Virus record (IMG/VR): IMGVR_UViG_3300025141_008514
Coordinates: 1 to 20,955 of that record
Length of the DNA: 20,955 nucleotides
Reading direction: 5' to 3' (one strand)
Origin: a virus
This document shows positions 1-20,955 of the stretch, in pieces. The notes beneath the pieces were generated by a model. The model worked only from the letters and a program-made list of their open reading frames with translations, was not told the DNA's origin and did not search any database. The position numbers and the translations under genes are program-made. Positions within the stretch are counted from its first letter, which is position 1, and each line of letters begins with the position of its first letter.

Positions 1-3000
1 TTTCGCAGGACGCCCAGCCAAGCTGGACTCTAGCGCCTTTATAGGATCGAAGCCCTCGCCTCTCCGGACAAACGGGATCCCCTTTTCCTGGAGCTTCTCA
101 TAAATGCGCCTGGACATCGAATTGAGTCTTGTGTCTGACGCGAACCCAAGGCCTCTCTTCTGTGCCTCCTGGAGGGCCTTGAGGTAGGCGGTGAAGCCAG
201 TCTCCATGCCGACAGCGACGCCGCTTGGGAGGTTGCTGCTAGTGACTGTAAGGTGCTTAGAATCAACACGGAGCGTAATCGCGGGGAGGGCTTCTTTATG
301 CTCCTTAGCCTTCAGCCCCGTCTTCAGCTCTGCCTTCAGCTCTGCCTGCTGAGCTATAAACTCCTTCCTGGGAAGATTATCCAGGTTGGCACCACCGAGA
401 ATCAGGTGCTTCCTGTGCATATCAATTGCAGCAGTGGGCGATGTACCCCTGACATTCAGGTGGATGCTAATTCTTCCTTCAGATCCATGCTTGCCACCGC
501 TGAGCGAGACTTCCATAGTATCGGAGAGGTCCTTGTACGTCCCGCCTCCAACAGTGACCTTCTTTCCAGTTACAGCCTGGAGATGTTCTGGGACCTTAGA
601 GTCGAGGGCGCTCCTCGAAAGCTTGAACCAATCGCTAGCTTCGTCGTAAGCCTTTGCCTCCGCTTTCATGAGTCCGTCTGTGGACTCAAAGATGGCAACG
701 AGAGCATTTCGATCCGTTGGCTTGAGCCCTAGCAGGGCTCCGAGCTTCTTGAGGAACGCAGTCCAGCCAGTATCGCTTGGCGCTACCTGGATAGTCTTCA
801 GCCACCGCTGGAACTTCTTGTTAGTAAACGCCTCGGCAACCATCTCATCGACGTTCTTTTTCCCATACCACCCCATCGTATCATTGGCTTCCCTGCCAAG
901 CTTATCAATCTCGTCCCAGATGTCCCTCAGCAACAGCTTTTCAAGGTCGTCGAAGTGCCTAGCCATATCCTTCTCAGATTTGCTCAGCTTCTTCCTGGAT
1001 CCCTTTGGCCCAAAGTTCTTAAGATGCCTCGCCTTTTCGATAACGTGGACTGTTCCGGCGTGAACAAGCTCATGGACTAGGGTTTGAGAATTTGCCCCAC
1101 TCACATTCCATCCATGTGGCCTGATCCAGATTTGTCCTTTGTTGAACGATCCACTAGATCCAAAGTGCGGTGACTGGTGAACTCCATACGCGTTGCCCGA
1201 GAGAATGTTTCCAGGCGGGCGATTCTCCTGGAGAAGCTCAAACTCTCTATAGATGCGCCTGATGCTTTCTTTCGACAGAGCGCCCTGGTATCGATTCGTC
1301 ATCTTCTCGACATATGTTTCCAGGGTCTCTATCGAGTTGAACCTTGGATAGTAATCAGGGCCATCCTCCATTCTGAGCTTGCTGCCGTTGATGGGTTTAT
1401 TAGTCCTATGGTCAATCTTTCCCTTAGTGACATCATTGATGGTACTGATAATAGTCTTCTTCTGATCATTGAATGCCTTCGTCCACTTCTCCTCGCTAGT
1501 CCAAACCCTATAGTCCTTGCCGTCGAAGTTCTTGGTCATCCTCTCTACAACAGCCTTCAAGGACTCGTCCTCGAGGTGCTTAAGGAGGTAAGCCGCTAGG
1601 TCTTCCCCGGTCTCAACCTTATCCAACTCCGCTACAGCATACCTCTGCTTACCGTAGCTAGAGCCCCTCCCGACTGGCCCCTCGCCAACCTTTCCGCCAG
1701 CGACCCACGCGTCCCGCTCCGTCTTCCACGCGCCGACATCAAATGGAGCGCCGGAAAGGCCGAAAGCATGCCCGTCCTGGTCCCACGACATCTGCTGCTG
1801 CTGGGTTTCCCGGTACTTTGGGGGCTTACCAGTCTGCAAGTCGATAGTTGTATTAACACCCTTTGCTTCAAAGAAACCAACCTGACGAGCGATCTTACCT
1901 TCCTCGATCTTGATAACGCTCATCCCGTCTGGATGGAACCACCCATGAGGCGTCCACTTGCCTGTACCCGCATCAAAGAGGGTGATAGGCTTAACATGAG
2001 CCTTGAGGAAATCTGTAAGGAACTGCGCCTCTCCAGCAGTCATCCGCCCGTAGTTCACACCCATCGCCTCCTTGACGATGTAACTGAGAAGCTCTCTGTT
2101 ATGCGTGGTCGACTTGTGCAGCCTCTTCCTCCTGATCTCCTTAAGCTCATCCTTGTCGGGGTGCTTCTGGAACCAACGCTTAGTCTTCTCCGCTCCCTGC
2201 CTTGTCGGGATTCTCCCCCATCTTTCCAACGGCAGGACCGTCTCGCCCTGCATAAGCTTGCCGCCCTCAGCTTCCCAGATGTGGGTGATGCGACTTCCCT
2301 CCTGCCTAATAGGAATCTTTCGAGTGCTCGCCCTAGAGGGTGCGAGTTCAAGTCTCTGGTTCTTGCCCCTGCCCTTAAGCTGCTCCGATCCGCGTCGGGA
2401 CAGGACCTTCAGATCATGCTCTGCGATGTCTGCGGCAAGCCTGTCGATCTGGTCGTACTGTTGCTTTGATGCCTTCGTTGGAGCACCGAGGTCCAGGTAG
2501 GGCTGATAGTAACGAGCCTTGTTGAGGAGCTTTCTCCAGCCACCAAGCTCCATAATGAGGGAGTCCTTCATGCCACCAATGGCATACTTGTCCCACATCT
2601 GATAAGTCAGGGCCTTCTTTGTCCGCATACGAGCAGATACGTTCCAACGAGAACTAAGGATCCTGGCAATATCAAGTTCAACGTGGTTAGGACCGAGGAA
2701 AATGAGAGCGTCGTCAAGTGTTGCAATCCTTCTGTGCAGGGAGAAGGGATTCGTCTTTCCAGCATTAGTAACATCAGGCGACACCTTAACTGCCCCAGGC
2801 CGCTCGATCTTAAGGAAATCGAGGATGTTGTTAAACGTGGAGGAGGAGTATAGGTGGGTGACGTAATCCTTGAGGTAGTTACCGTGAATGAACATTTCCT
2901 TTTCTAGTTCATAAATCTCGTCAAACTGCTCCCTGATGAACTTTGCCGCTGGCGCAAGCCTTGGGTGGATCGGGTGCTTGGCGGGGTCTTCGATGTGATG

Positions 3001-4668
3001 GGAGAGCTTGATCCGCTCTTCGCCCGTAATCCTGGACGTGCGGACCCTGCCGTCAAGAGACTTGCGCTCAATCTTCTTATTGAAGAACGACCTGATATCG
3101 AACGTCCGCTTGGCCATCTCCTCGTGGGCGTTGTCAAGCATGCCCTGAATGACAAGCCTGTCCTCAGCCGGAGCACGCTCTAGTGCAGAGGTAAAGTAAT
3201 TCCGAAATCTCGCAATTCCGCCGTGAGCAACCCCTGCGGCTCCGACAGTCATTCTTGTGGCTAGGCCAAGTCCAGGCGGGACCGTCCCCCTGCTGAGCCT
3301 CTCGGCCTGCCGCGAGTTGTATTTGCTAATGCTGCTGAGCACACCCTCCGTGAGGGCCTGATTCTTAAGAAGCGGAGATCGTGTCGTAGCGAAGCCTGCT
3401 CCGAGCACACCACCGACAACCTGGCTCATCCCGCCTGCCCCGAGCAGCATTGGAACAGCAGCGCCACCGACGCCTCCGATCATTGGGCCACCAACGATCC
3501 CCATCCCAAGACCGATTGAGCTTTCCTTTGACCAGATGCTTGCAGTCTCCTGGAACATTCCAGCTGGGCCTGACGCCATCTTGGCCTTGTACATCTGACT
3601 TCTTGGCGTCCACCCTCCGAGCTTCTTCGTTCTCTGTGACCAAGAGAGTGGGTTTATAACACTCTTTCCTGCCCTCTGGAACTCAAGTGCCTTAAGCGCG
3701 TACTTCTCATACCTAGCTGTGGATCCGATTGCGAAGTCTAGGAAGCCAGCTCGCATTGCACCGTCATCGAGGAGCCTTCCAACGTGCTCAGGAAGAATAT
3801 CATCCGCGCTCTTAACACCGAAACGCTTATACATAAGCTCCGGCGTCTCCTTGAGGAAGTCCCTCGCGGCCTCTTTGAGTACAAGCTCTCCCCATCTAGT
3901 GAGCGTGAGGTCACCACCTCGGCTCGCGACCGCCGCAGCTTTCTTTCCGGCAGTCTTTCCGAGGTTCTTGGACAGCGTGGTTGCGGCCTTTGACCCTGAC
4001 TGAAGAGTAATCTTGGCACCAGCGCCGATACCAAACGTCAGCCAAGTCGCAGGATCCAGCAAGATGTCCAGGCCGATACCAGCCGCCATCGTCCAACCGC
4101 TATCCGGGTCGGCACCGCCCTTCATTATAACATCTCGGTACATCGCTCTGCCGTGCCACGCCTTGCTGAACTCCTCCGTAGACCACGCAAGTCCAAACCC
4201 GCCAAGCATCGAGTTGGTCTCCTGATCCTTAAGTCCCTCTGTGATTGCAGCAGAAGCAGATACGAGGAACCGGAACCCGGAGAACGTCTCCAGCACGCCG
4301 ATTGTGTTCATCAGCTTACCACGATGATCATGGAACCCGAGGACACGCTCTAGCCGTGTCCTGTATCTATCCTTGCGAGGATCGTCCGGGTCCTTCCCGC
4401 CGTGCTCACGGTAAATGGCCGAAATGTAATCATGCTCAGTCTCAGTGATCATCCCAACGTCTTTAGCAGCCGCAGCAACACCAGAGCTAAGAGGGACACG
4501 ACTCTGCTGGTTATCCATGACAGTGTCGGAGGCCCACGTGGGCGTTTCCCACGGAGGCGCGCTATCGTCGAACGGTTCGCCGCCGGGTCCAGAGACCTCG
4601 ACGGCCTTCCCCGTCTTTGCGCCCCAATTAGGGTCTGGCGTGAAGTCTTTCCAGAAGTCCTTAGACAT
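1..4668 (-). CDS. Giant internal virion / polyvalent ejection protein with HExxH metallopeptidase (partial, C-terminus beyond window)
   Basis: The frame is open from an ATG at 4668 to base 1, 1556 codons with no stop and no cysteine codon. The start lies 2 bases after the stop of the 830-aa gene, with a weak GGTGAG ribosome site. Visible parts: a hydrophobic stretch GIGLDILLDPATWLTFG near residues 197-213; a Gly-rich membrane-like stretch near 385-430; a long helical part with YVTHLY (602-607) and an LHRRIATLDDAL stretch from about 644, a style seen in large phage virion proteins; a zincin motif HELVH at 1199-1203 with MVAEAF at 1276-1281; an ASDTRLNSMSRRIYEKL stretch from about 1510. It occupies the place of T7 gp16, after two other internal-protein-like genes. 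I infer a protein packaged in the capsid and injected with DNA, carrying effector or processing domains. I see no clear lytic transglycosylase. Open-ended length makes it at least as large as T7 gp16 (about 1,300 aa). Confidence 0.8.
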   Translation of the reverse strand, partial: MSKDFWKDFTPDPNWGAKTGKAVEVSGPGGEPFDDSAPPWETPTWASDTVMDNQQSRVPLSSGVAAAAKDVGMITETEHDYISAIYREHGGKDPDDPRKDRYRTRLERVLGFHDHRGKLMNTIGVLETFSGFRFLVSASAAITEGLKDQETNSMLGGFGLAWSTEEFSKAWHGRAMYRDVIMKGGADPDSGWTMAAGIGLDILLDPATWLTFGIGAGAKITLQSGSKAATTLSKNLGKTAGKKAAAVASRGGDLTLTRWGELVLKEAARDFLKETPELMYKRFGVKSADDILPEHVGRLLDDGAMRAGFLDFAIGSTARYEKYALKALEFQRAGKSVINPLSWSQRTKKLGGWTPRSQMYKAKMASGPAGMFQETASIWSKESSIGLGMGIVGGPMIGGVGGAAVPMLLGAGGMSQVVGGVLGAGFATTRSPLLKNQALTEGVLSSISKYNSRQAERLSRGTVPPGLGLATRMTVGAAGVAHGGIARFRNYFTSALERAPAEDRLVIQGMLDNAHEEMAKRTFDIRSFFNKKIERKSLDGRVRTSRITGEERIKLSHHIEDPAKHPIHPRLAPAAKFIREQFDEIYELEKEMFIHGNYLKDYVTHLYSSSTFNNILDFLKIERPGAVKVSPDVTNAGKTNPFSLHRRIATLDDALIFLGPNHVELDIARILSSRWNVSARMRTKKALTYQMWDKYAIGGMKDSLIMELGGWRKLLNKARYYQPYLDLGAPTKASKQQYDQIDRLAADIAEHDLKVLSRRGSEQLKGRGKNQRLELAPSRASTRKIPIRQEGSRITHIWEAEGGKLMQGETVLPLERWGRIPTRQGAEKTKRWFQKHPDKDELKEIRRKRLHKSTTHNRELLSYIVKEAMGVNYGRMTAGEAQFLTDFLKAHVKPITLFDAGTGKWTPHGWFHPDGMSVIKIEEGKIARQVGFFEAKGVNTTIDLQTGKPPKYRETQQQQMSWDQDGHAFGLSGAPFDVGAWKTERDAWVAGGKVGEGPVGRGSSYGKQRYAVAELDKVETGEDLAAYLLKHLEDESLKAVVERMTKNFDGKDYRVWTSEEKWTKAFNDQKKTIISTINDVTKGKIDHRTNKPINGSKLRMEDGPDYYPRFNSIETLETYVEKMTNRYQGALSKESIRRIYREFELLQENRPPGNILSGNAYGVHQSPHFGSSGSFNKGQIWIRPHGWNVSGANSQTLVHELVHAGTVHVIEKARHLKNFGPKGSRKKLSKSEKDMARHFDDLEKLLLRDIWDEIDKLGREANDTMGWYGKKNVDEMVAEAFTNKKFQRWLKTIQVAPSDTGWTAFLKKLGALLGLKPTDRNALVAIFESTDGLMKAEAKAYDEASDWFKLSRSALDSKVPEHLQAVTGKKVTVGGGTYKDLSDTMEVSLSGGKHGSEGRISIHLNVRGTSPTAAIDMHRKHLILGGANLDNLPRKEFIAQQAELKAELKTGLKAKEHKEALPAITLRVDSKHLTVTSSNLPSGVAVGMETGFTAYLKALQEAQKRGLGFASDTRLNSMSRRIYEKLQEKGIPFVRRGEGFDPIKALESSLAGRPAK
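310..345 (-). repeat. Three-copy 12-base tandem repeat coding for a charged helix
   Basis: Two identical 12-base units (322-333 and 334-345, + strand cttcagctctgc) are followed by a diverged copy at 310-321. In the giant protein they encode AELK AELK TGLK, part of a short Lys/Glu-rich helix linking the segment after the protease to the final visible region. The units keep the frame, so this is a small in-frame duplication rather than a regulatory repeat. Confidence 0.7.
758..1174 (-). other. Zincin-like metallopeptidase domain inside the giant protein (approximate limits)
   Basis: Residues about 1165-1304 of the giant protein. HELVH at 1199-1203 (bases 1060-1074) gives two zinc-binding histidines and a catalytic glutamate, preceded by a predicted strand (GQIWIRPHGW). 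About 75 residues later comes VDEMVAEAFTNKKFQRWL, where E1275 or E1279 could supply the third zinc ligand in gluzincin fashion. HExxHA followed by an E..AEAF.N..F helix is a pattern I associate with metallopeptidase domains in phage polyvalent proteins. The substrate is unknown: virion maturation, cell-wall peptide or a host protein are all possible. The motif is seen directly; activity is inferred. Confidence 0.7.
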
Positions 4669-15143: not shown

Positions 15144-16259
15144 TTAGCTCCAAGTGTCAAGTTCGGTAGCAGTTTGCGCACTAAGGCGACCCTGCTGCGC
15201 GAGGTTCTCATAAATGACCATCTTGGAGTGCAGGAAGAACGTCCACTCTGCGTGCTGCCCGCCAGCAATACGAGGCCCATCAAGGGTCATATTGACTGAC
15301 GGATGGTAAGCGCAATAAACGCCACCAAGCTCACGAGCAGAAACCTGTCCTGTCTCCGAAACGCCATCGCGATTCTGGAAGCCACCAAGTCCGTCGCCTT
15401 CACGATTCGCCGTCAACCAAAGTCCGGTGTCAGCCGGAAGCTCTGGAGTCGGGACAATCGGTCGGCCAAAGATCGCAACACTGTGAGGCGTGGGATCGAC
15501 GGTAGGATCGAGGCGGCCAGTAGAACGGAACCCGTTGCTGAGCATCATTGCGCGGATGAAGTTTTCACCCATCGCCTTGGTGCAGAAGAACCAACGAGGA
15601 ACCGACGTGCCAACGGTGCAGTCAAGGAAGAGCTGCATAGTGAGCAGAACGCCGCGAGCGAGGAACCCGCCTGCGCCACCAACATCATCACCAAAGTTAT
15701 TACCATTGGGGAGCTGACGGTGCTGGTTGTTCCACCACTGGTGGGTCGCCTTGTTAATGCCACCAACAACCTCTGACTGGGCACCGATATTGGCTGCCTC
15801 AATGGCAGTCGTAAGACCAACAGGCTGTCGCCCGCCAGTACCACTAACAGTCTTCTGAGCAATGTCGTTGAGCAGCGTCTTGCGAGCCTGTCGGAACCGA
15901 AGCTCCTCAGTACTCATGACACGCGACTCACCCTGGTTCTTCCAACGAGTCGTATACTCCATACGAACGGGGTGGGAAACCCAGGACCAACTGTACTCAG
16001 CCTCGGTCACGCCGGGGGTGAAGTCCTTGCTAACAGGATCGAGCCCATCGAACCAAGTCGGGATACCCGACTCAGCAATCAAGAGCGGCTGTGTGATCGT
16101 ATGACCACCGTTAATTCCGGCGATAAGCCCTGAACGCGCGAACGCGCCCAGAATGACGTTCTCACCAGAGATAAGATCAATGATGTTACCCATGCGCGAC
16201 AGTGCAGTCGCAACAAACGCTTCATCAGCGACCGGGTCTACCGAAAAGTAGTTACCCAT
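15144..16259 (-). CDS. Major capsid protein, HK97-fold type (371 aa)
   Basis: The ATG at 16259 has GGAGG 9 bases upstream, a good site fitting high expression, and follows the scaffold-like gene by a few bases. The sequence has an N-terminal helical part, a strand-rich middle with TTRWKNQGESRVMSTEELRF and GTGGRQPVGLTTAIEAANIG, then WWNNQ and a central domain with FFCTKAMGENFIRAMM. This resembles HK97-type capsid proteins annotated in podoviruses and metagenomic phages, including the conserved 'VGLttAi' turn before the central domain. Length is normal for this fold. There is no obvious long N-terminal delta domain, consistent with a separate scaffold gene. Assignment rests on these patterns plus the portal-scaffold-capsid order. 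Confidence 0.75.
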   Translation of the reverse strand: MGNYFSVDPVADEAFVATALSRMGNIIDLISGENVILGAFARSGLIAGINGGHTITQPLLIAESGIPTWFDGLDPVSKDFTPGVTEAEYSWSWVSHPVRMEYTTRWKNQGESRVMSTEELRFRQARKTLLNDIAQKTVSGTGGRQPVGLTTAIEAANIGAQSEVVGGINKATHQWWNNQHRQLPNGNNFGDDVGGAGGFLARGVLLTMQLFLDCTVGTSVPRWFFCTKAMGENFIRAMMLSNGFRSTGRLDPTVDPTPHSVAIFGRPIVPTPELPADTGLWLTANREGDGLGGFQNRDGVSETGQVSARELGGVYCAYHPSVNMTLDGPRIAGGQHAEWTFFLHSKMVIYENLAQQGRLSAQTATELDTWS

Positions 16260-16265
16260 TACTAA

Positions 16266-16937
16266 TTACCTCCGAGAAACCGAAACGAGATCTCCATGAT
16301 GCTTCTCAGCATCGACGAATTCGGGGTTTGACTTTCGCCAGCCCACCGCTTCGCGGAAATCCATCCGGTTCAACTTTTGTTTTTGGGAATCGTAAGTCTC
16401 CTTGTCGTCAACCCATTGGTTGCCGGTACCAGGAGCCTCACTGCTTGCGTTCGTGGAGGAAATTCCACTCCCGCGAATAGGCTGTTCTGCGTCACGCAGG
16501 GCCACCTTTGCCCCTTCCTGGGCTCTTGATTCGGCGCTGATCTCTGCGGCAGCGACAAGGTCGCTATGCCGAGCAATCAGGAATGCCTTCCTCGGAGAAA
16601 GCCCTCTCTCAATGTCGCCCTGAGCAACTGGCAGATACCTCGCGAATTCAGATCCAAGCTCATTTCTAAGCTCAGTCATCTCACGGTCAAACTGCTTCTG
16701 TTGCTCAAGGTCGTTAAAAATCTGACGAACACGGCCCTCATCGAGGTCGTCCTCATCGGTTGTCTTTGAAAACATCCGCTCCCTCATTGCGGCAATAGGG
16801 TCGCCATTACTCCTCTTGGCCGCATCAAACTTCATTGAAAGCTCAGACTGCACACCGGGAGGTAGCCCCTCAATCGGCGCTCCGCTCTTAGCCCACTGAC
16901 CCCAATCAAAACCTTCGTAAGCATCTCTACTAGGCAT
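16266..16937 (-). CDS. Probable scaffolding protein (223 aa)
   Basis: The ATG at 16937 has AGGAG 8 bases upstream and lies inside the last 8 bases of the zinc-ribbon gene. The protein is hydrophilic, mostly helical, rich in Glu, Asp, Arg and Gln, and has no cysteine. A central coiled-coil-like stretch (DLEQQKQFDREMTELRNELG, about residues 75-95) is followed by further helices and a disordered Gly/Ser linker (GSGISSTNASSEAPGTG). The C-terminus is mixed basic and acidic. A charged helical protein immediately before the major capsid gene is the classic position and make-up of a phage scaffold, which shapes the procapsid and leaves or is cleaved on maturation. No protease gene is seen next to it. 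Confidence 0.65.
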   Translation of the reverse strand: MPSRDAYEGFDWGQWAKSGAPIEGLPPGVQSELSMKFDAAKRSNGDPIAAMRERMFSKTTDEDDLDEGRVRQIFNDLEQQKQFDREMTELRNELGSEFARYLPVAQGDIERGLSPRKAFLIARHSDLVAAAEISAESRAQEGAKVALRDAEQPIRGSGISSTNASSEAPGTGNQWVDDKETYDSQKQKLNRMDFREAVGWRKSNPEFVDAEKHHGDLVSVSRR

Positions 16938-17448
16938 TTAACAAACTCCTACTTTTGGAAATAGAATCACGGATAACCTTCTTTCTGGCCTCCGGATTTC
17001 TTAACATCTTATTGTACATCCTCAAATCGCCATCGATTTCTTTATCGGTGCGACGCTTCTTGGCGGAATCATCAGACTTCTCATACATGGTGAGTTTGTC
17101 TGACGGCGACTCTGGCTCAACCATCCCGTGCTTCTTAAGAAGAGCCTTGTACTCGTTCCTGTTGTTAACTGTAACAATATTCGGAACAGTCTTTCCGTCA
17201 ACAACCTTTGGTGGAAGGAGCCACGGGGCAGTGTCGAATGGGTAGTCGCCAGAGGCAGAGTGCAGGTTCGGAAGAGACATCTTAAACCGGAACGAGCCGC
17301 ACGAATCGGTTGTGCCATCCTCGTACTCAACGGTGTGGGTGTACTCCCCAGAAGAAAGCTCGTCGATAAAGATATCAAGGTGCTTATGTGGCATCAGCTC
17401 CTGATGCACATGACCGCACTCTTCACACTTACACTCATACAGCGGCAT
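16930..17448 (-). CDS. FmdB-like zinc-ribbon protein in the head module (172 aa)
   Basis: The N-terminus MPLYECKCEECGHVHQE matches the FmdB-type start (MP.YEY.C..CGH). C8 and C11 form one CxxC knuckle; C6, H13, H15, H21, H23 or C50 must supply the other ligands because the usual second CxxC is missing. Residues about 38-55 are strand-like. The C-terminal 60 residues are charged and helical (DKEIDGDLRMYNKMLRNPEARKKVIRD). Its ATG is 1 base after the stop of the lysine-rich peptide and it lacks a strong ribosome site, suggesting coupling to that peptide. Small FmdB-like proteins are found near portal genes in other phages; their role is unclear, possibly binding nucleic acid or helping assembly. 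Confidence 0.65.
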   Translation of the reverse strand: MPLYECKCEECGHVHQELMPHKHLDIFIDELSSGEYTHTVEYEDGTTDSCGSFRFKMSLPNLHSASGDYPFDTAPWLLPPKVVDGKTVPNIVTVNNRNEYKALLKKHGMVEPESPSDKLTMYEKSDDSAKKRRTDKEIDGDLRMYNKMLRNPEARKKVIRDSISKSRSLLNA

Positions 17449-17449
17449 C

Positions 17450-17512
17450 TTATCTCTTCTTCTTAGACTTCTTCTTCTTCTTAGGCTTAGGCTTAGGCTT
17501 GTATACCGGCAT
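17450..17512 (-). CDS. 20-residue lysine-rich peptide
   Basis: ATG at 17512 to TAA at 17450, encoding MPVYKPKPKPKKKKKSKKKR: 11 Lys and 1 Arg in 20 residues, with a Lys-Pro repeat and then a Lys run. A perfect AGGAGG sits 5 bases upstream, the best ribosome site in the window, and the zinc-ribbon gene starts 1 base after its stop. It has no counterpart I recognise. Such a polycation could bind DNA or the acidic scaffold or capsid, or act as a leader that delivers ribosomes to the next gene. The strong site and exact fit to the gap argue that it is translated. Confidence 0.6.
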   Translation of the reverse strand: MPVYKPKPKPKKKKKSKKKR

Positions 17513-17517
17513 CAAAA

Positions 17518-17523
17518 CCTCCT
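17518..17523 (-). promoter_or_regulatory. Perfect AGGAGG ribosome binding site of the lysine-rich peptide
   Basis: The + strand reads cctcct, so the mRNA carries AGGAGG with a 5-base spacer (TTTTG) to the ATG at 17512. It decides that the 20-codon frame is the translated start in this gap, and it is probably also the entry site for ribosomes that reach the zinc-ribbon gene. Confidence 0.75.
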
Positions 17524-17560
17524 GTTTGCTGTGACCGGCGTCCTGCGCTGCCGTCGGTGT

Positions 17561-17590
17561 CGGTCGAGCAGTTTTTAGGCTACTCGACCG
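17561..17590 (-). other. 11-bp hairpin with the portal stop codon in its loop
   Basis: The arms 17561-17571 and 17580-17590 pair over 11 bp in the minus-strand RNA, with one G-U wobble, around an 8-base loop that contains the portal TAA (17575-17577). No U-tract follows, so it is not a standard terminator. It precedes the peptide ribosome site by about 40 bases. A role in RNA processing, protection of the 3' end or separation of portal from head expression is possible but inferred. Confidence 0.5.
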
Positions 17591-19497
17591 CCACCTCCGG
17601 GGGTACGCATGCCGGCCACAGCACTGCCAGTATCACCGAATTCCTGGGGGCTGTCAACCCTAGATCCCAAACTTCTCGCTTGAGCGCCTGGTTGCTGGCT
17701 TTCAGGCCCGCCCATTCCCTGCTCGGGCGAGAGCTGCCCGCCCATTCCCTGCTGCTGCTCGGGCACCGGGGCCGCGAGCACGCGGCTCCCCCAGCGGTTG
17801 ACCCTCGCAACGATCCTAGCAAGCTCCCTCGGATTAAACTCCTGCATCAGCACAGGGTTAGACATCACTCGTTCAATGGATTGAATCTCAATCAACCGAT
17901 CCTGTAGGGGATCGCCCTTCTCGAGATCAATAATCTCAACCTTATAGTTAATGATTCCCTTTACAATGTCACGACCGAACTGAAACGCAAGGCTTCCGCG
18001 CCGAATCTCAACAGGCTGAAGGTTGTATCTCTGAATGAGGTAGGTACAGATAAGCATAGTGCTTCGATAAGCCTCGTAAATCTTAAAACGAAGCTCATCT
18101 CGACGCTCCTCAGCGTACCGCTCCTCCTGCCTGAACGCGGTTGCAACCTTATTAGAAGAACCAGAGCCCGACATCGTACCTGTCACGCCTGTGTTGCGCT
18201 TAAACTGTGCATCAATCGTAGACCAGAACTGAACAAGTGCGGCTGGCATTGATGGTGACTGCCTGTGCTCGGGAGGCCTGTTTCCAGAGTACCTAATTGG
18301 CCCATTGTAGTCAGGATCAACGTACTTATCCCACTCTTCCTGGTCAAACTGAATATCTTCCGGGATAAAGTCCTTGTGGGACGAGTAAATCTCGAAGTGC
18401 TGCTTAAGTTTCTTCCTAGCCCACGCGGCCTCAACGATGTCGTCGTGAGCCTGCTCGATGTAGGATGGTCCAGACCATAGTCCGGGGGCCTCGTCGGATG
18501 CCCGCAGCGCAACCCACGGGAAAATGTTAAGCGGGTTTGGTCGAGGGCCGTGAACCCACGTCTGCGAGATAAGATCGATGATTCCAACACGGTGGGTAAT
18601 GCCAGGGTCGTCAGGATCTTCCCGAATCCAAACCTCGCACAAAACAACAACCTCTTTAGACGAGGGAACATCGAAAGACGAAAGAAGGCCCCCTCCAAGA
18701 TAGTCCTTTGCATCGATAAGTTGATCATCCTGCTCAGTTGTACGGTAATACGACTCGACCTTTTCCTTATTCTTAAAAACACCTGATACTTTAAACTTCT
18801 TAAGTGGCATAACAAACAGGTGAGCAATATAACGACCAAGTTCAATCTCGGTAATCCCTCGCTCAGTGATAACGTGACGAGGATCTACCCAATCAACCCA
18901 CGGAATATCGAGTGATGTCGTTGGCATCGGAAGGATCGGCTTAGATTCTTGCTCAATCGCGCCATCCTCGAGCCCCGGAATGTCCATAGCCTCAAGCTGG
19001 AGGGCCTGAGCAATCTCATCGTCCACCGCCTCATAGACAGGGTTCTCGAAATCGATAGTCTCAACAAGCTCCGGGGTAGCCTCACTCAGAGTATTGGACT
19101 GCTGGATCCCAACAGCGGGCATCCCGCACTTAAGCCAGCCGATAGGACTCCACGCACAGGTGTGCTGTGCCTTCCTCAGCCTCTTCCTGACCTCTGTCTT
19201 GTCGGACAGTAGGGTGACAGCATCCTCAATCTCGTTAGACCGGTCATAATCCTCGCCACCCTCGCCAAGGAACTCAGCGTCAAGGTGCGGCAACCTATGC
19301 AAGAAGTCCATCGAGCCAATGGCCCTGATGATTCTACGCGCCCACGGAGCCTGTGTACGCTCATTGCCATCCCTGATCTTCTGCTGTGGCCCCAGGAGCC
19401 GCAGATTTCTGTTGATCCGTGGGTGAACATTCGACTTGAGCCACTCAAGGTCAATGCGAATCCGCTCTGCCCATTCCTTTGCGTCTGGCTGTGACAT
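17575..19497 (-). CDS. Portal protein (640 aa)
   Basis: The ATG at 19497 shares a base with the terminase stop (TAATG) and has AAGGAG 6 bases upstream. A basic helical N-terminus is followed by the mixed core, including VDWVDPRHVITERG (about 205-218), a pattern seen in podovirus portals, IFPWVALRASDEAPGLWSGPSYIEQ and a long helix ending in NTGVTGTMSGSGSSNKVATAFRQEERY, the typical 'n..tGv.g...G..s....TA.e' portal segment. The C-terminus is a low-complexity Gln/Gly/Pro tail with GMGG repeats. It forms the dodecameric DNA channel at one capsid vertex. The length suits a podovirus portal. Confidence 0.8.
   Translation of the reverse strand: MSQPDAKEWAERIRIDLEWLKSNVHPRINRNLRLLGPQQKIRDGNERTQAPWARRIIRAIGSMDFLHRLPHLDAEFLGEGGEDYDRSNEIEDAVTLLSDKTEVRKRLRKAQHTCAWSPIGWLKCGMPAVGIQQSNTLSEATPELVETIDFENPVYEAVDDEIAQALQLEAMDIPGLEDGAIEQESKPILPMPTTSLDIPWVDWVDPRHVITERGITEIELGRYIAHLFVMPLKKFKVSGVFKNKEKVESYYRTTEQDDQLIDAKDYLGGGLLSSFDVPSSKEVVVLCEVWIREDPDDPGITHRVGIIDLISQTWVHGPRPNPLNIFPWVALRASDEAPGLWSGPSYIEQAHDDIVEAAWARKKLKQHFEIYSSHKDFIPEDIQFDQEEWDKYVDPDYNGPIRYSGNRPPEHRQSPSMPAALVQFWSTIDAQFKRNTGVTGTMSGSGSSNKVATAFRQEERYAEERRDELRFKIYEAYRSTMLICTYLIQRYNLQPVEIRRGSLAFQFGRDIVKGIINYKVEIIDLEKGDPLQDRLIEIQSIERVMSNPVLMQEFNPRELARIVARVNRWGSRVLAAPVPEQQQGMGGQLSPEQGMGGPESQQPGAQARSLGSRVDSPQEFGDTGSAVAGMRTPGGGGRVA
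17706..17753 (-). repeat. 18-base direct repeat in the portal C-terminal tail
   Basis: The 18-mer gcccgcccattccctgct occurs at 17706-17723 and again at 17736-17753. It encodes the repeated QGMGG units in the portal's disordered C-terminus. In-frame slippage or duplication explains it; no other role is visible. Confidence 0.75.
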
Positions 19498-20955
19498 TAC
19501 CTACTCCTTGCAGCGAATCTTTTTCCAAAAAGATCCGAGTATGTTGAATCGTCTTCTAGTGTTGTCTTGTTTCTCGAGTAAGCGAACTTGCCTCTCTGCG
19601 GCACAGCGGGCTTCTCCCTTAGTATTCTTGCCCTCAGTGGGTGGGTTCGTAGCATCTCCCACGCCAGAGCCCCCATTATGACCATGTCATCCCTTGCCTT
19701 CTCTCCGGTGACAGCCGAAACTATCTCTGCGGCAGCGTACTTTCCATTATCGTGCTTAATGAAGTCCTGAGCGTCCCATGAGAAACGCTCATCGTTCATC
19801 GTAATCTTACCTTCGCTGACAGCCGTCCTAAACCTGAGGACAAGGGGGCCTCTTGACGCCGCAGTTTGTAAGAACCACATGGAATCAGTGTGTTGATCGT
19901 AAGACTTTCGCTCAAGAATCCTGTGATAATTCTTTCCGTAGCCAAAATCAATCCATCTTGACCTGACTGCCTTGCCGACGTTGTTGAGTTCCCCGATAAC
20001 ATACGCCCTTGACCCGTACCACTTAGTAATGTAAGCCATCTGTGACGCGATAACGACGTCATTTCTAGGCCCTCCTCTAAATCTAGCAGATGCACACTGC
20101 TGACCGTTAGACAATTTAAACAATCCCAGCGCGGTATAGTCGCCACCTGGGATCCCATCAGAAAAATCACCGGCAAGGATATACTCCTCGCCCTCTTCTG
20201 GCTCATGCCAGATCCACCACTGACCAGATTGCTTAATATCAACGCTGTATTTTATTCTCGACATCAAGACTGGCTCGTCTGGGCCTATAATGTCACACCT
20301 AAACTTAGGCTCGGGGAACTCCCGCTGGACTACGCCTGGACCAAAGAACGTCGAGTACGATGCCGTACATGACTCCTCGTATGTCATCGGGTATTCGCGG
20401 TGGAACAGGTCCAGATCACCAAGCCCGTCTATTTTGAGTCGTCTGAATCCGACCTGTCCAGGAGATAGATTATGTCTCTCACAATACTCTCTCTCAGAGA
20501 CTGGTACGCGATTGCCATCAATAAGATTAAAGTCACTATAGCGACCAGAAGCACCTCGGCTGGGATCATTAATCGCCGGCCCAACGTAGTCGCTAAGGAT
20601 TGTCCAGGGATAAAATTCAAAATTATATGGTGTACTAGGATCCCTAGCCAAAACAGCAATTCTTTGAAGCTCTCTAGCCAACTCATCGTTAGTTCCTTCC
20701 CAGACAATTACATTGTGTGGGCCAGCGTGGACCGCAGGAACAACAACTTGATTTATAGTTGACCAGATGTTTGCTCCGAGCTTTTCGTACTTGCCAGCCT
20801 CGGAGAGAATAACCATGTTAAAGTTGCCGCCGAGCTTCGTGAGCCCAGAGCCGCCTGCGTACCGAATAACAATCTCAGACCCATTAGCGAGGATGAGGTG
20901 GCCGTCCGCGACGGAGCGCTTAATCATTCCGTAAAACAAGTCAGGCCACAGCTTC
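19497..20955 (-). CDS. terL: Terminase large subunit (partial, N-terminus beyond window)
   Basis: The frame is open to the right edge (upstream residues KLWPD precede an internal TTG at 20939), so the true start and the Walker A motif lie outside. Numbered from that TTG, a Walker B-like FNMVILSEAGKY occurs at about 40-51; the usual Asp before Glu is Ser. The RNase H-like nuclease follows: GDFSDGIPGGDYTALGLF with D258, VIGELNN with E317 and ARDDMVI with D417/D418, the three acidic positions expected for the metal-dependent nuclease. It translocates DNA into the procapsid through the portal and cuts it. Coupling to the portal gene (TAATG) is consistent. The small subunit is not in the window. 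Confidence 0.85.
   Translation of the reverse strand, partial: KLWPDLFYGMIKRSVADGHLILANGSEIVIRYAGGSGLTKLGGNFNMVILSEAGKYEKLGANIWSTINQVVVPAVHAGPHNVIVWEGTNDELARELQRIAVLARDPSTPYNFEFYPWTILSDYVGPAINDPSRGASGRYSDFNLIDGNRVPVSEREYCERHNLSPGQVGFRRLKIDGLGDLDLFHREYPMTYEESCTASYSTFFGPGVVQREFPEPKFRCDIIGPDEPVLMSRIKYSVDIKQSGQWWIWHEPEEGEEYILAGDFSDGIPGGDYTALGLFKLSNGQQCASARFRGGPRNDVVIASQMAYITKWYGSRAYVIGELNNVGKAVRSRWIDFGYGKNYHRILERKSYDQHTDSMWFLQTAASRGPLVLRFRTAVSEGKITMNDERFSWDAQDFIKHDNGKYAAAEIVSAVTGEKARDDMVIMGALAWEMLRTHPLRARILREKPAVPQRGKFAYSRNKTTLEDDSTYSDLFGKRFAARSR

Follow-up and report, generated by a model that had tools for sequence, protein, structure and literature searches.

Among the closest known counterparts of the locus considered here is gp73 (QGZ18308.1) of pelagiphage HTVC115P, which in the complete genome lies directly after the portal gene and is annotated only as a hypothetical protein. 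It and a set of related microproteins in marine contigs, which share the pattern MP-x-GKGTYGS-x-x-GRPPKKK, are 33-45 aa long and represent small Lys-rich open reading frames (ORFs), preceded by a Shine-Dalgarno (SD) sequence, downstream of a portal gene; zinc-ribbon, scaffold and capsid genes come next in the marine contigs. The genome of phage DSL-LC06 (OR003941.1) contains an unannotated frame, MKYKKKKPGRGGKKY (L338, positions 3142-3189, plus strand), between its portal and scaffold genes, the stop of which overlaps the next annotated start (TAATG). No description of a class of Lys-rich minigenes was found in the open-access literature; the catalogue of small phage genes of Fremin et al. (2022), which lies outside that scope, may contain members. 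Very short or closely abutting frames are also known to act on the translation of a neighbor, as in the axe-txe operon, where the two-codon minigene mg2 raises Txe translation in cis (PMC8708949), and in RNA phage GA, where the coat/lysis junction shows translational coupling without an SD sequence of the downstream ORF (PMC9955659).

The DNA analyzed here (the window) is a stretch of 20,955 nucleotides from a viral record (IMGVR_UViG_3300025141_008514). Between its portal and zinc-ribbon genes is a frame for a 20-aa peptide, MPVYKPKPKPKKKKKSKKKR (Table 1), in which 11 Lys and one Arg make up 60% of the residues and which is preceded at 5 nt by AGGAGG; translation and sequence thus bear out a sequence-only reading of the window that had singled out this frame. 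The same reading had called its ribosome site the best of the window, which is true but narrowly so, as the predicted duplex with the anti-SD sequence (-11.0 kcal/mol) is the strongest among 14 starts scored and the capsid (-10.8 kcal/mol), a 330-aa gene (-10.6 kcal/mol) and an 830-aa gene (-10.2 kcal/mol) come close. The frame had also been said to fill the portal/zinc-ribbon gap; it sits in that gap but occupies only half of its 126 nt, and much of the remainder is taken up by a strong hairpin. All 11 of its Lys codons are AAG, and the other genes of the window are alike in this respect (166 AAG, 26 AAA). The loop of the hairpin contains the portal stop codon, and no shuffle gave an equally good structure. 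A standard terminator was ruled out since a U-tract is absent; from its place upstream of the minigene, the hairpin could contribute to the processing or stability of the RNA. Elsewhere in the window, a 232-aa gene that follows the capsid gene (15153, minus strand) has a TTG start without an SD sequence and an in-frame ATG 12 nt inside, and a large open frame of 686 aa running off the left end (1-2058, minus strand) starts at a GTG that AGGAGG precedes by 8 nt.

Table 1. Features of the window around the minigene, in descending order of position.
Feature	Position	Strand	Basis or remark
Terminase large subunit, truncated by window end	19497-20955	minus	tblastn to Roseobacter phage CRP-7 terminase, E 7e-14
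Portal gene, 640 aa	17575-19497	minus	Pfam SU10_portal, E 9.7e-6, below curated cut-off; position after terminase
RNA hairpin	17552-17599	minus	11-bp core stem, -29.9 kcal/mol, z -6.6
SD sequence AGGAGG	17518-17523	minus	5-nt spacer TTTTG to minigene ATG
Polylysine minigene, 20 aa, MPVYKPKPKPKKKKKSKKKR + TAA	17450-17512	minus	ATG at 17512, TAA at 17452-17450; translation, shuffles, class members
Zinc-ribbon gene, 172 aa, MPLYECKCEECG...	16930-17448	minus	Zn_ribbon_8 match; weak SD, -2.9 kcal/mol
Putative scaffold gene, 223 aa	16266-16937	minus	precedes capsid gene as in relatives
Major capsid gene	15144-16259	minus	phrog_9953 major head protein, E 1.5e-25; tblastn to Mx9, Mx8 and others

By capsid protein, the nearest relatives of the window are the Mx8-like podoviruses, at approximately 23-31% identity in tblastn (Mx9, E 7e-14, 26% identity); an alignment of the capsid proteins was too divergent for scanning. 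The window has a homologous capsid and shares with these phages the order portal, zinc ribbon, scaffold, capsid, and this order is kept in a panel of 80 Mx8-like contigs wherever the region is readable. For the other neighbors the matches are weaker: the portal has a weak SU10_portal match alone, its profile match to Mx8-like portal proteins not being significant, and a profile of Mx8-like zinc-ribbon proteins gives a weak two-part match to the zinc-ribbon protein. The latter matches Pfam Zn_ribbon_8 (PF09723) over its first 20 residues only (E 7e-4, 20.0 bits versus a curated cut-off of 34.4), which falls short of FmdB-type Zn_ribbon_8 membership at that cut-off, and the putative scaffold gave no significant family match in PHROG and Pfam searches. 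The minigene lies on the same strand between portal and scaffold/capsid genes, with the portal and zinc-ribbon matches below Pfam curated cut-offs and the scaffold assigned by position only.

Close relatives of the window were found neither in viral contigs scanned with the zinc-ribbon, portal and capsid proteins, nor in phage records by tblastn of the portal and zinc ribbon, nor in genome contigs scanned with the terminase. A homologue of this very peptide came to light neither in such searches nor in pattern scans, and the peptide matched no PHROG or Pfam family. Three matches to AGGAGG followed by MP.YKP were unrelated frames that arose by chance, and among the matches listed for MP.YK.K.K, those that were read were random frames or longer proteins without relation to the peptide.

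In the Mx8-like phages, what separates portal and zinc ribbon varies: there is often nothing, and sometimes a small ORF, which may run into the zinc-ribbon start. Where this slot is readable in the panel of 80, none of the contigs has a polylysine frame in it. Relatives with the same gene order and a broken frame had been named beforehand as grounds for rejecting the minigene, and such relatives without the frame do exist, but they are distant. The scaffolds of the panel, which are adjacent to this interval, are acidic, with listed net charges mostly between -6 and -42. One example of a small ORF in this place comes from Stenotrophomonas phage BUCT555 (L005, 4101-4259, plus strand), where a basic protein, MPSKSPAQHRLM..., occupies the same slot, its start overlapping the portal end and its stop the zinc-ribbon start. 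It has a net charge of +11 and no Pfam match; unlike the window peptide, it is 52 aa long, is 27% Lys/Arg and has no polylysine. Elsewhere among the Mx8-like phages, the slot is empty or contains ORFs that are neutral or acidic.

On its own, the ribosome site is not strong evidence, since AGGAGG-N4-9-ATG is expected 1.6 times per dinucleotide-shuffled window and 0.84 times with a frame of 12-60 aa behind it. This frequency, and the distant relatives without the frame, would suit an improbable reading in which CCTAAG and AAG repeats expanded by chance in an AGGAGG-bearing spacer and the frame is non-functional; a tandem-repeat finder indeed reports a period 6 array (3.5 copies, 100%) and period 3 arrays at the minigene. 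A frame of at least 50% Lys/Arg behind such a site did not, however, arise in any of 200 shuffles, the minigene is coupled exactly to the next gene, and comparable genes recur strongly at the same position in other phages (see below). Similar criteria applied to ∼2.0 Mb from 215 phage loci returned one further intergenic case only, VGCKKGRRGGGKRK in an Mx8-like phage (L167, 4826-4870, plus strand). This is a GTG minigene situated between zinc ribbon and scaffold and followed by a hairpin; its AGGAGG, at 6 nt, overlaps the zinc-ribbon stop.

Two scans, both of which are samples, were made for AGGAGG with an ATG and, a short way behind it, five Lys codons; they yielded 46 Lys-rich minigenes (10-30 aa, AGGAGG) among 120 matches listed from viral contigs and eight among 121 matches listed from contigs of bacterial and archaeal genomes. 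Of the minigenes from viruses, at least nine (L248, L313, L331, L267, L262, L318, L250, L253, and L264) are located downstream of a portal gene, belonging to phrog_145, phrog_156 or phrog_1216, and upstream of a scaffold or capsid gene; some of these neighbors were scanned and some assigned by similarity to a scanned neighbor. Three of them (L250, L253, and L264) have the order of the window, with a zinc-ribbon gene separating minigene and scaffold. The minigenes of three IMG/VR contigs, MPGYMTGKKKKKRKSYK (L253), MPGHYGRKKKKKKSR (L313) and MPMKKKKKKTKRRGGK (L331), share with that of the window a perfect AGGAGG, an MP start and the position from portal to scaffold/capsid; they are 15-17 aa long and 47-62% Lys/Arg. 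They differ in belonging to other phage lineages, with alignable homology limited to lysine runs, and in their surroundings, a further gene preceding the zinc ribbon in L253 and no zinc ribbon being seen in L313 and L331. A second recurrent location was noted in L258, L266, L293, and L312, where highly Lys-rich minigenes of 23-25 aa with AGGAGG stand just upstream of a common gene, DRYNYVRVPRSDDEG..., which is probably an exonuclease.

The window peptide begins MPVYKPKPK, resembling the MPLYECKCE of the zinc ribbon, and 17 of 27 bases are identical from the two ATGs, a likeness equalled by one other among the 605 ATGs of the window. That the minigene is a decayed copy of the zinc-ribbon gene start is nevertheless very improbable, as the likeness fades beyond 27 bases, only five of 20 bases agree upstream, and MP..Y/H starts (MPGY, MPYH, MPGHY) are common within the minigene class, from which the shared start may instead derive.

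An independent view of the class is provided by 80 marine podovirus loci that were retrieved by capsid protein alone, three of which (L349, L353, and L356) are contigs that the minigene scan had also picked up. A zinc-ribbon match lies upstream of the scaffold in 70 of the 80. Among the 46 loci in which both portal end and zinc ribbon could be placed, 23 contain a Lys-rich ORF in the interval (12-45 aa, at least 36% Lys/Arg, with an SD sequence; portal ends assigned by ORF length), and all 23 are found among the 28 loci with an interval longer than 700 nt. In total, 26 such ORFs were detected in sense orientation and none in antisense, compared with a mean of 1.9 and a maximum of 6 in 40 dinucleotide shuffles. 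Many have an MP start, lysine runs and a common GTYGS..GRPPKKK motif. By alignment, this motif is missing from the window peptide, and most marine members are longer (17-41 aa) and less than 60% lysine-rich. Two pairs could be aligned well enough to compare substitutions: between L366 and L427, 13 changes are synonymous (18.5 sites) and 9 nonsynonymous (83.5 sites), and between L367 and L388 the corresponding counts are 4 (20.3 sites) and 3 (87.7 sites). In both pairs, judged from these counts, the peptide is under selection; in two more distant pairs, compared without gaps, the synonymous excess is less clear. One marine member matched the 'DNA condensation' family phrog_2354, which was dismissed as not significant (E 0.94). 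Profile comparison did not show the window portal or capsid to be homologous to the marine podovirus proteins, so that a common origin of the position is not demonstrated.

The window frame falls within the bounds used for the class (10-45 aa, at least 36% Lys/Arg, a spaced SD sequence), to which it is assigned by length, composition, ribosome site and position rather than by sequence homology, class members being alignable only over MP..Y and lysine runs. The most likely conclusion from the excess in the scans, the marine interval ORFs and the synonymous excess in the two alignable pairs is that the frame is genuine and translated and that it represents a recurrent class, as yet without a name, of Lys-rich head-operon microproteins. 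The earlier judgement that the minigene is real rather than noise thereby gains support, and it is probably an overlooked part of the virus-head gene set.

Whether the peptide or the act of its translation matters is a separate question. The minigene stop lies 1 nt ahead of the zinc-ribbon ATG, whose own SD sequence is weak, a geometry that fits the proposal, made from the sequence beforehand, of a leader for a weakly initiated next gene. Ribosomes would then load at AGGAGG, translate the lysine tract and re-initiate at the zinc-ribbon ATG, the peptide itself being of no consequence. The Txe minigene and the coat/lysis coupling of phage GA offer precedents, and in 17 of the 46 listed class members the next start lies -4 to +5 nt from the minigene's own stop. 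Like the window minigene, mg2 is a very short ORF before the start of another operon gene, but it comprises two codons and acts in cis, whereas the window frame has 20 codons and a strong residue bias. A cis-acting leader has no need of lysine richness, yet this is kept across unrelated lineages, with CGN arginine codons used in addition to AAA and AAG; many class members are uncoupled to the next gene, and the two marine pairs point to selection on amino acids. Such a leader is a serious, if on balance unlikely, alternative.

The preferred reading, to which a probability of roughly one half (0.52) is attached, is that the minigene is a genuine, strongly translated head-operon gene of the widespread Lys-rich class of environmental tailed phages, the product of which acts in trans on a polyanion, and that it is coupled to the zinc-ribbon gene. 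According to this proposal, the minigene would be co-translated with the downstream gene, and its product would be a free polycationic peptide, made in quantity just ahead of the scaffold and capsid proteins, that would act during head assembly by binding the scaffold protein, itself acidic, or DNA in the vicinity of the portal. The suggestion of a DNA-condensing or scaffold-binding peptide had been raised before and agrees with the repeated presence of such minigenes after the portal and before the scaffold gene of several phage lineages; for this, as for every functional step, including binding in trans, the argument is from position and composition. A bolder form of the proposal, which is put forward tentatively and appears doubtful, is that unrelated tailed-phage lineages convergently keep an ultra-short polylysine gene beside the portal, missed for its length, and that its product serves as a protamine-like assembly cofactor neutralizing the scaffold or packaged DNA.

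Frames as short as these are often missed by gene callers, so that most annotations may lack a recurring part of the phage head operon. The class is easily tested, as genome records with members exist (HTVC115P and DSL-LC06). Should these peptides prove to be assembly cofactors, they would rank among the smallest gene products dedicated to a structural module and provide a natural example of a polycation that is genetically encoded.
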